Assembly: GCF_024170505.1 (NCBI RefSeq)
Contig: NZ_JALJYG010000014.1
Coordinates: 1 to 54,686 of the forward strand
Direction of reading: 5' to 3'
Length of the DNA: 54,686 bases
Origin: Methanocalculus alkaliphilus
GTDB lineage: Archaea; Halobacteriota; Methanomicrobia; Methanomicrobiales; Methanocorpusculaceae
The position numbers were made by a program, and so were the translations under genes. The notes under the pieces were generated by a model. It was given only the letters and a program-made list of their open reading frames with translations, was not told where the DNA came from and did not search any database. Below, piece by piece: positions 36,937 through 44,969 of this stretch. Numbering within the stretch: the first letter of the stretch is position 1; each line of letters opens with the position of its first letter.

Positions 36937-37770
36937 TCAGTGATGGAGGGGGGAGAGGAGTGCCGCCGGAAGGTCCTCTCTTCTCGTCACCACAGTCGAT
37001 GACTGTTCGAGCATCAGGTTGACATGCTCATTGTGGCCTGCACTCCGAAAGTCGGTCCGGAGCGCAACAACCGGGATGCCAAGGGCATGGGCATACCCCA
37101 TCTCCCATGCGGTCCCTGAGTCCGCATCCGCACCATCGACGATAGCAACCACCCAGTCGGTATTCCCAAGCGCCTCGGCATGTGATGCAAAGATCTCCTG
37201 CATCGTCTGGTGATGCCGGGATGCCGAGTCGTCACCCGCCTCCTGGGGGAGATAGACCTCAAAGCAGTGGGTGGCAAGGATATCGCGGATGAACTCATTG
37301 TATCTCCGTTCCGCTTCCGAGAAGAGCGGGGCGGCGAGGTACACCCTGTACCGGGCAAAGTCATAGACATCTGTTGCCGGGATATCAGGGAACCTGGAGA
37401 GGAACGCTCCGCGATGCTCTATCCTCCCCTCCGGGCTGTACCAGGTGGTGTTCACCCCGCATGTGGGTGATGAATCCACCCCGACGAAGCAGAGCGGCTC
37501 GCCCTTCTCAAGGATCATCTGCCGGACCTCGGATTCGAGCCGGTCGAGGAGGGTAGAGAATTCACGTGTCTCAAGCCGTTCGGTGTATGTCCCGGGGGGG
37601 CGGTCCCTGCCAAGGTACAGCGTCTCCGGGCAGGGGAGAGGGACGACCTCCAGCCCGAATGCCGAGCACCGCCTGAGGCACCGTTCATAGGCCCTGAGAT
37701 CCTCTTCCCGTGTGATCCCCTCTGCCCGGAGGGTGGGATCCAGAATACAGGGAGCAACCATGATGTACAT
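36937..37770 (-). CDS. TudS-like desulfidase fused to nucleoside 2-deoxyribosyltransferase
   Basis: A 277-residue two-domain protein. Residues 1-135 resemble the TudS/DUF523 family: Cys8 (APCILDP), Cys47 (PLPCPET) and Cys104 (SSPTCGV) are spaced like the three iron-sulfur ligands of thiouracil desulfidases. Residues 142-265 are a nucleoside 2-deoxyribosyltransferase: VYLAAPLF at the start and DADSGTAWEMGYAHALGIPVVA, with Glu223 as the likely nucleophile. The joint activity would act on thiolated bases or nucleosides. Start may be the ATG at 37761. Convergent with the synthetase gene, four bases apart. Confidence 0.8.
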   Translation of the reverse strand: MYIMVAPCILDPTLRAEGITREEDLRAYERCLRRCSAFGLEVVPLPCPETLYLGRDRPPGTYTERLETREFSTLLDRLESEVRQMILEKGEPLCFVGVDSSPTCGVNTTWYSPEGRIEHRGAFLSRFPDIPATDVYDFARYRVYLAAPLFSEAERRYNEFIRDILATHCFEVYLPQEAGDDSASRHHQTMQEIFASHAEALGNTDWVVAIVDGADADSGTAWEMGYAHALGIPVVALRTDFRSAGHNEHVNLMLEQSSTVVTRREDLPAALLSPLHH

Positions 37771-37846
37771 AGATCATATCTGTCCTGATCCCAGATGGAT
37801 TGATCGCGGCTTTTGATGACAGATGAGAGCAGAGTACTTATCCAGC

Positions 37847-38341
37847 ATGATTCCCCTGATCGCATATCGTGACAACACCTGTGCCCCACGAAAGTGTACA
37901 GTGAAGCGGCTGGAGCGTTTCGGGATGATCCGGATCGTCCCCTCGATGAGGCAGGTACCCAAAGGAACCCTCCTCCTCGACCCGACCGCCGGAGTTGTCA
38001 TCTCGCCCGCCGACCGGGGATGGGTCCGGTCGATAACGGCCCTCGACTGTTCCTGGGAGGTGCTTGAGCGGGAGGAGATGGGGAGGTTCCGGGGCAGGAG
38101 AGCACTCCCGTTCCTTGTTGCGGCGAACCCGGTCAATTTCGGGAAGCCGTTTGTCCTCTCCTCGGTCGAGGCGCTGGCAGCCGCACTTATTATTCTGGGA
38201 GAGAGGGAGCAGGCAGAAGAGATCCTCGCAAAAGTTCCGTTTGGGATCAGGTTCCTTGAGGTGAATGCCGAACCCCTTGCCGACTATGCAGCAGCAGGTG
38301 ATAGTGCCGGGGTGCTTGCAGCCCAGGCAGAGTATCTCTGA
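37847..38341 (+). CDS. tsr3: Tsr3-like rRNA aminocarboxypropyltransferase (DUF367)
   Basis: A 164-residue protein of the Tsr3 family, which adds an aminocarboxypropyl group to small-subunit rRNA. The N-terminal IAYRDNTCAPRKCTVKRLERFG, the DPTAGVVISPADRGW stretch and LVAANPVNFGKPFVLSSVEALAAAL are diagnostic. I start at the ATG at 37847 because family members begin right before the IAYRDNTC motif; an ATG at 37823 adds eight residues. It diverges from the TudS-like gene and ends back to back with the next minus gene. Confidence 0.88.
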   Translation: MIPLIAYRDNTCAPRKCTVKRLERFGMIRIVPSMRQVPKGTLLLDPTAGVVISPADRGWVRSITALDCSWEVLEREEMGRFRGRRALPFLVAANPVNFGKPFVLSSVEALAAALIILGEREQAEEILAKVPFGIRFLEVNAEPLADYAAAGDSAGVLAAQAEYL

Positions 38342-42555: not shown

Positions 42556-42828
42556 ATGGAGTTGTATCGTATTCTTTTGATACCCGTTCTCCTCTGTATC
42601 CTCTGCACCGGTGTCGTTTCAGCGGCAGAATATCCCTCTGCCCCCACCGGGAGCATGGAAGGGCTCGGGGAGTTCGTCGGCTGGCTCACCGACCTCGGAC
42701 GGGCCCTGATCGATATATTCAACGATGCGATGGAGATGATCGGCCTTGGCAATGAGACCTGTGTCGGGGAGATGGTGGAGTCGCTTGAAGGTGGTCTGGA
42801 GATGGTCAATCAGAGGATGGGTTCGTAA
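42556..42828 (+). CDS. Small secreted protein of unknown function
   Basis: A 90-residue protein with a signal peptide (MELYRILLIPVLLCILCTGVVSAAE), then a short acidic amphipathic chain (GLGEFVGWLTDLGRALIDIFNDAMEMIGLG, one Cys near the end). The frame continues upstream into the ROK gene, but the ATG at 42556 starts the signal. No relative is recognised. Its 3' end overlaps ablB by 23 bases in a convergent way. Confidence 0.65.
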   Translation: MELYRILLIPVLLCILCTGVVSAAEYPSAPTGSMEGLGEFVGWLTDLGRALIDIFNDAMEMIGLGNETCVGEMVESLEGGLEMVNQRMGS

Positions 42829-43663
42829 GAAGGGATCGATACCAGACATTCATACTCTCACATCCCTCCCCAATCCGGGTATTGTTCGGGAGCGTGCCGG
42901 CAAACCGGTACCCTCCGCGTGCAAAGAGGATATTCACCGGAGGCTCCTCCCCACGGCAGATGGTGTATGCCAGATGATAGCCGTCATCCCGTACAATCAC
43001 CTCCATATGTCCAAGGAGGACCCCGGCGGCACCGAGCCCCCTCGCCTCCGGGAGGGTCGCAAAATCGGTCATCTCGACCGTTCCGGAGTCCGGGTCGAGT
43101 TCTGCGGAGGCGGCGGCGAGGAGAGTCTCCCCGTGCATCATCATGAAGAACCGGGTCTCCCCGCTCTGTATTGAATCTCGTATGAAGCCGGGATCATCTA
43201 TCGGAAACGGGTAGCTCGGAAAGACCGTTCCATAGAGCCCGGCCAGCGCCTCTGCATCGGAGGCGTCCGCCTCATGAATCAGATATCCCTCCTTCAATGG
43301 ATGATGGCCTGAATCTGCCCGTTCAAGCGCAGTCCGGACTGTTGCAGCCACCCCCTCCTCATGGTACTCCCTCCGCGAGGGATCGGTGTACTTCCCCATG
43401 AAGAGGCAGGAATCGCCATCACTGAAGTAGCCGGGGATCTCCGCCTCAACCCCAAACCCCTCCCTCTCAAATTCAGGTGAAGCAGATTGTGGAATCTTTG
43501 CGAAGACCTTGGTATATCCCTCTTCCTCAAGTGTTCCCCGTATCCACCCGATGATGCGATCGGTATCCCCGGGATCAAGTTTCATCAGGTAGATCCGGTT
43601 GTTGTATCTTCCATGCTGGATGAGGCTTCGGCCTACCCTGATGACCGGATCACTCCTCGTCAT
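42806..43663 (-). CDS. ablB: Beta-lysine N-acetyltransferase
   Basis: A 285-residue GNAT-family enzyme, second step of N-epsilon-acetyl-beta-lysine synthesis. The acetyl-CoA segment [25 protein letters not shown] lies near 225, and the partly conserved N-terminal half is specific to AblB. I start at the ATG at 43663, with GGAGAGG directly upstream; a longer frame adds 30 residues made of ablA codons. It overlaps ablA by 14 bases. Confidence 0.9.
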
Positions 43664-44969
43664 CCTCTCTCCGTGCCATCCGCTCCGAGTCGGCTGGGAC
43701 GAGCGCCGTCGCCTCGTCATAGTCCGAGAGGAGCTTTGCGATCCCGACGACATGCTGCTCGTCCCCGGACTCGAGTTTCAGCTGGAGTGAACAGTCCTTG
43801 CAGTTGCGATCACAGAAGATCGAGGTATAGTTATCAGGCTCCCGGTAGGTGCTGATCACCCCTTCGAAGTTCCTGAGGATCACCTTGTTGGTAGAGTATG
43901 ATATCAGATATGTCGGCATCACCGGGATCTTCCCGCCGCCCCCGGGTGCATCGATGACGTAGGTTGGAACCGCAAAGCCGCTCGTATGGCCGATGAGATT
44001 CTCCATGATCTCAATCCCCTTCCCGACCGGGGTCCGGAAGTGCGAGAGACCCTCAGAGAGATCACACTGGTAGAGATAGTACGGCCTGACCCTGTTTTTG
44101 ACAAGCTTCTGGACGAGCGACTTCATGATCCTCGGGCAGTCGTTCACTCCGGCAAGGAGAACCGACTGGTTGCCGAGGGGAATCCCGGCATCCGCAAGTT
44201 TTGCAAGTGCCTTCTCCGCACTCGGCGTGATCTCCTGGGGATGATTGAAATGGGTATTGAGCCAGATCGGCTGATGTTTTTTGAGGACATTCACCAGACC
44301 ATCGGTTATTCTGAATGGAAGGACGACAGGGGTCCGCGATCCGATCCGGATCACCTCGACGTGGGGAATCGCCCGCAGTTCGGTGAGGATTCGATCAAGG
44401 AGATCATCGGGGAGCATGAGTGGATCACCACCTGAGAGGAGGACATCCCGGACCTCGGGATGCTCCCGAATATAGGTGATGCCCGCCTCCATCTCCTCCC
44501 ATGTCGGGATTCTGTCCCGATCTCCTACTCTCCGCTTTCGTGTGCAGTGGCGGCAGTACATTGCACAGACATTTGAGACGAGGAAGAGGACACGATCCGG
44601 GTACCGGTGGGTGATCCCCGGAACCGGGCTGTCACTATCCTCAGCAAGGGGATCCTCAAACTCGCACTCATCCACTCTGAGTTCATCCGGAACAGGAACG
44701 GCCTGCCGGAAGATGGGGTCATTGGCATAGTCCTCGGCCTTGATGAGCGAGAGGTAGTACGGGGTTGCGGCAAGAGGGAACGTATCGATCGTCTTCTGGA
44801 GCTTCTTCCGCTCTTCGGGGGGGAAGGTGATGCCAAGAACCTTCTCAAGCATCGAGAGGCTCCTGACGGTGTGGGCTATCTGCCAGCGCCAGTCCCTCCA
44901 CTGTGGTGCATCCTCACCTATCGAGTTGTGATATTCTCCGGATTTTGGGTTATGTGAAGATAGTTCCAT
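43650..44969 (-). CDS. ablA: Lysine 2,3-aminomutase
   Basis: A 439-residue radical SAM enzyme turning lysine into beta-lysine, the first step of the osmolyte path. The cluster motif is [13 protein letters not shown] (Cys135, 139, 142). [19 protein letters not shown], the PLP site near [17 protein letters not shown], and zinc-binding Cys in the C-terminal CDRNCKDC fit the family. The promoter lies in the AT-rich gap to the cupin gene. Salt-controlled expression is known for the methanogen ablAB genes; no salt element was recognised here. Confidence 0.94.

Follow-up and report, generated by a model that had tools for sequence, protein, structure and literature searches.

Architecture of the Fused Gene

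What would be served by joining a domain that resembles thiouracil desulfidase (TudS) to a nucleoside 2-deoxyribosyltransferase (NDT) in one polypeptide chain, and do the two halves act on the same compounds? This question is raised by a gene of Methanocalculus alkaliphilus in the window, i.e., the whole stretch of 54,686 nucleotides analyzed here. A first-pass annotation, made from the letters alone, had proposed such a fusion at 36937-37770 without giving its strand. These coordinates proved to be exact: the gene is a single ORF on the minus strand, with its ATG at 37770, its stop at 36937 and 277 codons. It is present as a single copy in the 2.09-Mb Methanocalculus genome, the closest named relative being Methanocalculus chunghsingensis with 93% identity. 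A close-relative search with the fusion, the sole scan covering bacterial genomes, returned nine loci, all from Methanomicrobiales. The gene is divided as follows.

36937..37770, minus: whole fusion gene, 277 aa (ORF and translation)
37372..37770, minus: TudS-like domain, residues 1-133 (NF045597, profile comparison, model against 6z93)
36937..37353, minus: nucleoside 2-deoxyribosyltransferase domain, residues 140-277 plus stop (PF05014; Foldseek 7o62)

The fusion of the two domains in one chain is real, and the identities of both are near certain. A chance fusion or an assembly error was rejected, because the same single ORF is found in many separate assemblies.

The TudS-like Half

A TudS-family score for the N-terminal half had been set beforehand as a test of its assignment, and NF045597 (TudS_rel_CD3072) matches residues 3-127 of the window protein at E = 1e-14 with 54.5 bits, below the curated cut-off of 130 bits. 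PF04463 (TudS) gave a weak score of 14.7 bits, below its gathering score of 34.7, so the half is termed “TudS-like” rather than filed as a member. Among 20 diverse fused N-halves, all matched NF045597 and 16 matched PF04463 at E ≤ 0.1, with a best value of 5e-8; one fusion ortholog (G018) was reported at the PF04463 cut-off. To our knowledge, CD3072-type TudS relatives have no known activity. In a profile comparison against 21 canonical TudS/RudS domains, 22 CD3072-type stand-alone and fused sequences gave a probability of 94.7% (E = 5.9e-8), and 20 fused sequences alone gave 87.6% (E = 3.5e-6). In both comparisons the TudS catalytic motifs aligned with C47-x-E49 and S101-P102-x-C104, and in that of the 22 sequences C8 was additionally paired with TudS Cys10.

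To analyze the fold, residues 1-133 were modeled with AlphaFold2 (pLDDT 83.1, pTM 0.78, 10 rows). Foldseek alone yielded no match to this model at E ≤ 0.001 and no TudS among the best 50 entries, while re-alignment to the 1000 best Foldseek chains placed TudS 6z93 first at Z 8.8, covering 126 of the 133 residues with an rmsd of 4.0 and 18% identity; the next entry had a Z of 4.9. Searching solved structures by sequence with the N-half found no TudS relative, and no TudS appeared in the Foldseek list of the full-length model (pLDDT 70.5, weak around residues 100-118). The TudS structural relative was thus recovered solely by profile comparison and fold re-alignment. Taken with the family score, these two lines agree with the call of a TudS-like desulfidase made at first pass. 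The residues of greatest interest are located at the following positions, conservation being counted over 45 distinct full-length fusions.

37747..37749, minus: Cys8, predicted cluster ligand (45/45; aligns with TudS Cys10)
37624..37632, minus: Cys47-Pro48-Glu49, predicted ligand and catalytic Glu (C47 and E49 in 45/45; canonical C-P-E motif)
37459..37470, minus: Ser101-Pro102-Thr103-Cys104, predicted catalytic Ser and third ligand (S101, P102 and C104 in 45/45)

In the numbering of the TudS crystal structure, the corresponding set is Cys10/Cys43/Cys104, Glu45, Ser101 and Ser103 (PMC10611767, accessible text). C8, C47-P-E49 and S101-P102-T103-C104 of the fusion follow the TudS order with near-identical spacing, a match that chance does not explain, and the three cysteines, together with Glu223 of the C-half, were found exactly where the first-pass annotation had placed them. 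The correspondence is less complete elsewhere. Position 103, equivalent to the second catalytic Ser103, is Thr in the window protein and T21, A10, C7, S4 and V3 across the 45 fusions, so that 20 of them carry A, C or V. The position of the base-stacking Tyr18 is Ala16 in all 45, and Arg57 is Arg in 43. A fourth cysteine, Cys35 (R34-C35, 37666-37668, minus), is likewise present in 45/45 and lies outside the TudS ligand positions.

The Deoxyribosyltransferase Half

NDTs go through a Glu-deoxyribosyl intermediate, a mechanism with which PMC7308715 is consistent. The call of this enzyme for the C-half is confirmed by PF05014, which matches residues 143-253 at E = 1.5e-25 with 90.1 bits, above the gathering score of 28.8. 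The best structural match of the full-length model is the deoxyribosyltransferase of Desulfotalea psychrophila, 7o62 (Foldseek E = 4.2e-9), so structure prediction, which had been suggested for both halves, led to the expected family in each case. Identity of the NDT half to 7o62 (DpNDT) and 7m5h (EfNDT) is 32-36%.

37339..37341, minus: Tyr144, deoxyribose-versus-ribose position in NDTs (45/45; rule from the accessible text of PMC7308715)
37102..37122, minus: Asp217-Glu223 (DSGTAWE), sugar-binding Asp and nucleophilic Glu (D217 and E223 in 45/45)
37012..37020, minus: Asn251-Leu252-Met253, NDT “NLM” motif (45/45)

The (d)NMP glycosidases (Rcl/DNPH1, MilB) are not known to carry the sugar O5′-binding Asp and the NLM Asn of NDTs. 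Membership of the C-half in this group was considered and is opposed by the retention of D217 and N251 in 45/45 fusions. Tyr144, Asp217 and NLM together mark the C-half as a transferase of the deoxy type and speak against an NMP glycosidase. The whole active-site set (Y144, D205, D217, E223 and N251-L-M) is invariant in the 45 fusions, and T239-D-F-R242 is the counterpart of the TDYR motif of tetramers. For the archaeal relative AvNRT, which has ribosyltransferase activity, roles are described for Glu85, Asp79, Asp62, the Asn of NLM and the tetramer TDYR motif in the accessible part of PMC7308715. In the same part of that source, Tyr at the discriminating position is tied to 2′-deoxyribose and Phe to ribose; Phe7 of AvNRT is replaced by Tyr144 in 45/45 fusions, as in deoxy-specific NDTs. 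Judging from these residues, the C-half looks like a deoxy-specific NDT whose active site is complete and which has the motifs typical of the tetrameric enzymes.

Constraint, Distribution and Splitting

Over the full length of the 45 fusions, C8, R15, C35, C47, E49, S101, P102, C104, Y144, D205, D212, D217, E223 and N251 are invariant. Both halves are under purifying selection in Methanocalculus: among seven Methanocalculus-type sequences, dN/dS was 0.03-0.19 over 21 pairs for the TudS half and 0.05-0.17 over 20 computable pairs for the NDT half, the remaining pair being saturated. The fusion query was matched by 144 of 150 sampled Methanomicrobiales genomes, including 107 of the 108 of high quality. 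Both halves are present in 138 of the 150 (105/108 of high quality), a count from the match listing that takes in two fusions cut by contig ends and two that are frameshifted. In the wider phylum, NF045597 matches occur in 85/246 genomes. Beyond Methanomicrobiales the matching proteins stand alone, any NDT gene being located elsewhere in the genome; the stand-alone NDTs of Methanosarcinaceae do not adjoin a TudS-type gene. IMG/VR contigs contained neither the fusion nor the TudS half. Among 51 phage records matching the query P0001, none matched over 80% of it, and the best 8 of the 51 were NDT half only. Plasmids, queried with the N-half only, gave six Enterococcus records. On two of these plasmids (L212, L213), a CD3072-type gene is clustered with yedF, DUF3343, selB, selA and an ECF transporter component, which suggests a selenium-related role for this relative in Enterococcus.

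The halves are also found apart. Five genomes of family f3 (G002, G014, G032, G044, G050) have the NDT half only, in one genome (G126) the TudS half has decayed and the NDT is located on a different contig, and one from the class sample (G171) has the TudS half only. The separate halves in the f3 genomes and in G171 indicate that coupling is not obligatory. A first FastTree analysis placed the NDT-only f3 genes outside the fused clade with a support of 0.739; in IQ-TREE, with f3 fusions added, they nest inside it, with an SH-aLRT of 91 joining them to the f3 fusions L128 and L129 and of 56 for the whole f3 clade. Because of this nesting and of shared synteny, we prefer to read the NDT-only genes as losses of the TudS half, a reading that falls short of proof; that they represent the ancestral state is disfavored on the same grounds. 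Regarding the origin of the fusion, a type II GAPDH gene adjoins the stand-alone TudS-type gene in 5/20 loci and is near the fusion in 4/26. Its presence at both kinds of locus implies that the fusion probably formed at an old TudS-GAPDH locus.

Genomic Context

The fusion belongs to no operon. The gene downstream is convergent and encodes an ADP-forming acyl-CoA synthetase-like protein, and on the other side lies a divergent gene.

37823..38341, plus: Tsr3 (16S rRNA aminocarboxypropyltransferase, DUF367), a neighbor outside the enzyme (NF002621, E = 8e-54)

Tsr3 stands head-to-head with the fusion in 25/26 fused loci and in the window. This arrangement suggests a bidirectional promoter that has been conserved and perhaps also a connection in function with RNA modification. 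The match ends of the two genes are often ~30-80 bp apart (window; L031-L038, L070-L087).

It had been suggested at first pass that split versions be sought near genes for tRNA thiolation, and such neighbors exist. The stand-alone TudS-type gene lies within ~2 kb of the tRNA thiolase gene ncsA in 7/8 Methanosarcinaceae loci, compared with 0/12 of the other stand-alone TudS-type loci, with an opposite-strand gene between the two. Two of these ncsA neighbors matched NF047749 at E = 1e-88 and 2e-92, both under the family's own cut-off. In G171, the remnant with only the TudS half is followed after ~220 bp by an NcsA-like ORF in the same orientation. ThiI was detected in 23/25 genomes tested, with or without the TudS half, and therefore does not discriminate.

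Canonical relatives were also inspected. The only canonical TudS protein of the window's genome, of the RudS type (L208, G000:C1:129473-129895), has SPTSG and is without the third Cys, which leaves the fusion as the genome's only three-Cys TudS-like protein. Many methanogen proteins of TudS-DUF1722 length (L176-L211) have SPSCG replaced by SPTSG, SPTIG or SPSMG, and the third cluster Cys is lost. In family f8, which we infer to be the Methanosarcinaceae, a RudS-type copy with intact SPSCG occurs in 8/8 genomes without the CD3072-type gene versus 2/10 with it, as if the two genes replaced each other, a pattern that is confounded by genus.

Proposed Function and Competing Explanations

It is proposed, tentatively and with somewhat less than even confidence, that the gene encodes a bifunctional Methanomicrobiales enzyme in which thiopyrimidine desulfidation is placed beside deoxynucleoside base exchange, as conserved residues and predicted structures suggest. 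The N-half would draw sulfur from a thiopyrimidine, be it a base, a nucleoside or a nucleotide (e.g., one set free when tRNA is turned over), to the open iron of its cluster and would then release sulfide and the oxo-pyrimidine. In TudS, the thio-sulfur is bound at the cluster and replaced by Glu/Ser-assisted water (PMC10611767, accessible text). The C-half would exchange bases on 2′-deoxyribose through a covalent Glu223-deoxyribosyl intermediate. As a tethered pair, the halves would allow pyrimidine salvage while thiobases are kept from being built into deoxynucleosides. Here, it is the coupling of the halves and the direction of the pathway that we infer; the idea advanced at first pass, that the two would jointly desulfurate and exchange thiolated bases, is plausible as a hypothesis. 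Rather doubtful, in our estimation, is an extension of the proposal to order-wide thionucleoside sanitation, whereby the tethered desulfidase would desulfurate pyrimidines at the point of deoxynucleoside entry and so guard DNA from thiouracil in sulfide-rich methanogens.

The main competitor, nearly as likely as the favored coupled reading, supposes two working enzymes in one chain that share no substrate. One would desulfurate thionucleotides and the other would exchange deoxynucleoside bases in general, their union serving co-expression or the stabilization of the N-half by the NDT tetramer. It gains from the survival of each half without the other in some relatives and from the nesting of the f3 NDT-only genes, implying that the NDT was useful after TudS loss. 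Tyr144 also implies deoxyribose, as against the ribonucleotide 4-thio-UMP that canonical TudS prefers according to the accessible text of PMC10611767. This mismatch, moreover, renders a strict series of reactions on tRNA ribonucleosides unlikely. Separate activities are harder to reconcile with the retention of the fusion in 138/150 genomes, where it has not been split repeatedly, and with the nucleobase chemistry common to both halves. The recycling of thio-ribonucleosides from tRNA, the pathway offered in the first-pass annotation, would have the NDT half exchange or cleave ribosides. The proximity of stand-alone TudS-type genes to ncsA speaks for it, as does the ribosyltransferase activity of the archaeal NDT relative (PMC7308715, accessible text); in the ribose-using enzyme, however, Phe occupies the position of Tyr144, which is invariant in 45/45 fusions, the halves are lost separately, and ThiI does not help to discriminate. 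The pathway is partly supported, and as an account of the fusion it appears improbable.

The remaining explanations concern the chemistry of the N-half. It could be a non-catalytic or sensory Fe-S domain, or could act on a thio-compound unrelated to nucleobases, and the scores below the curated cut-offs of NF045597 and PF04463 and the failure to keep the Ser103 and Tyr18 equivalents are in keeping with this. Yet Glu49, Ser101 and Arg57 are kept along with the ligands, and their counterparts in RudS are essential (PMC11417400, accessible text), for which reason we give this reading little credence. Action on selenium compounds is brought to mind by the operon of the bacterial relatives, in which the CD3072-type gene is flanked by selA and an ECF transporter gene within the selB-selA cluster of Enterococcus gilvus and E. 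raffinosus, and by G359, the only genome of 246 above the NF045597 cut-off, which also has SelD over its cut-off. SelD reaches its cut-off, however, in just 2/33 genomes tested, the window's genome not among them, and in 1/21 members of the order tested (G043). Selenium chemistry in the fusion is accordingly unlikely, and very much so as an explanation of the N-half.

Relation to Known Systems

With TudS (DUF523, PF04463; PDB 6z92-6z96) the fusion shares the fold, the three Cys ligands and equivalents of Glu45, Ser101, Pro102 and Arg17, whereas it differs in its low identity (~18%), the variable Ser103, the change of Tyr18 to Ala, the attached NDT and a score below the Pfam cut-off. RudS (TudS plus DUF1722), a tRNA 4-thiouridine desulfidase, likewise combines a TudS-type domain with a second domain that may redirect it, although in the fusion the place of the tRNA-binding DUF1722 is taken by an NDT (PF05014). 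Among named families, the CD3072 family putative desulfidase (NF045597) is nearest to the N-half; it is in contrast stand-alone and, in Enterococcus, part of a selenium operon. DpNDT (7o62), EfNDT (7m5h) and AvNRT resemble the C-half in fold, Glu nucleophile, Asp, NLM and TDxR motifs, but are without an N-terminal TudS-like domain; AvNRT further differs in having Phe for Tyr and in using ribosides (PMC7308715, accessible text).

DUF1722 is given as the main fusion partner of TudS in the accessible portions of PMC10611767 and PMC11417400, which make no mention of a deoxyribosyl partner. No description of a TudS-NDT fusion was found in the non-subscription papers searched, and what turned up there for TudS in methanogens concerned a different enzyme. 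Were the sanitation reading true, no earlier case would be known of a TudS-type domain fused to an enzyme of nucleoside glycosyl transfer. The established partner DUF1722 may direct the enzyme to tRNA; a second TudS partner, this one acting on nucleosides in its own right, suggests that thionucleotides are handled by a further route as well. With a single protein, the fate of thiolated bases in methanogens becomes directly testable. At their curated cut-offs, Pfam and NCBIfam see nothing of the window protein beyond its NDT half, so that an order-wide desulfidase candidate is hidden under what would be a deoxyribosyltransferase annotation.

Elsewhere in the window, the genes at 43650-44969 and 42806-43753 appear by eye to encode a lysine 2,3-aminomutase-like and a GNAT acetyltransferase-like protein, which from their appearance we take to be the makers of the osmolyte N-epsilon-acetyl-beta-lysine.
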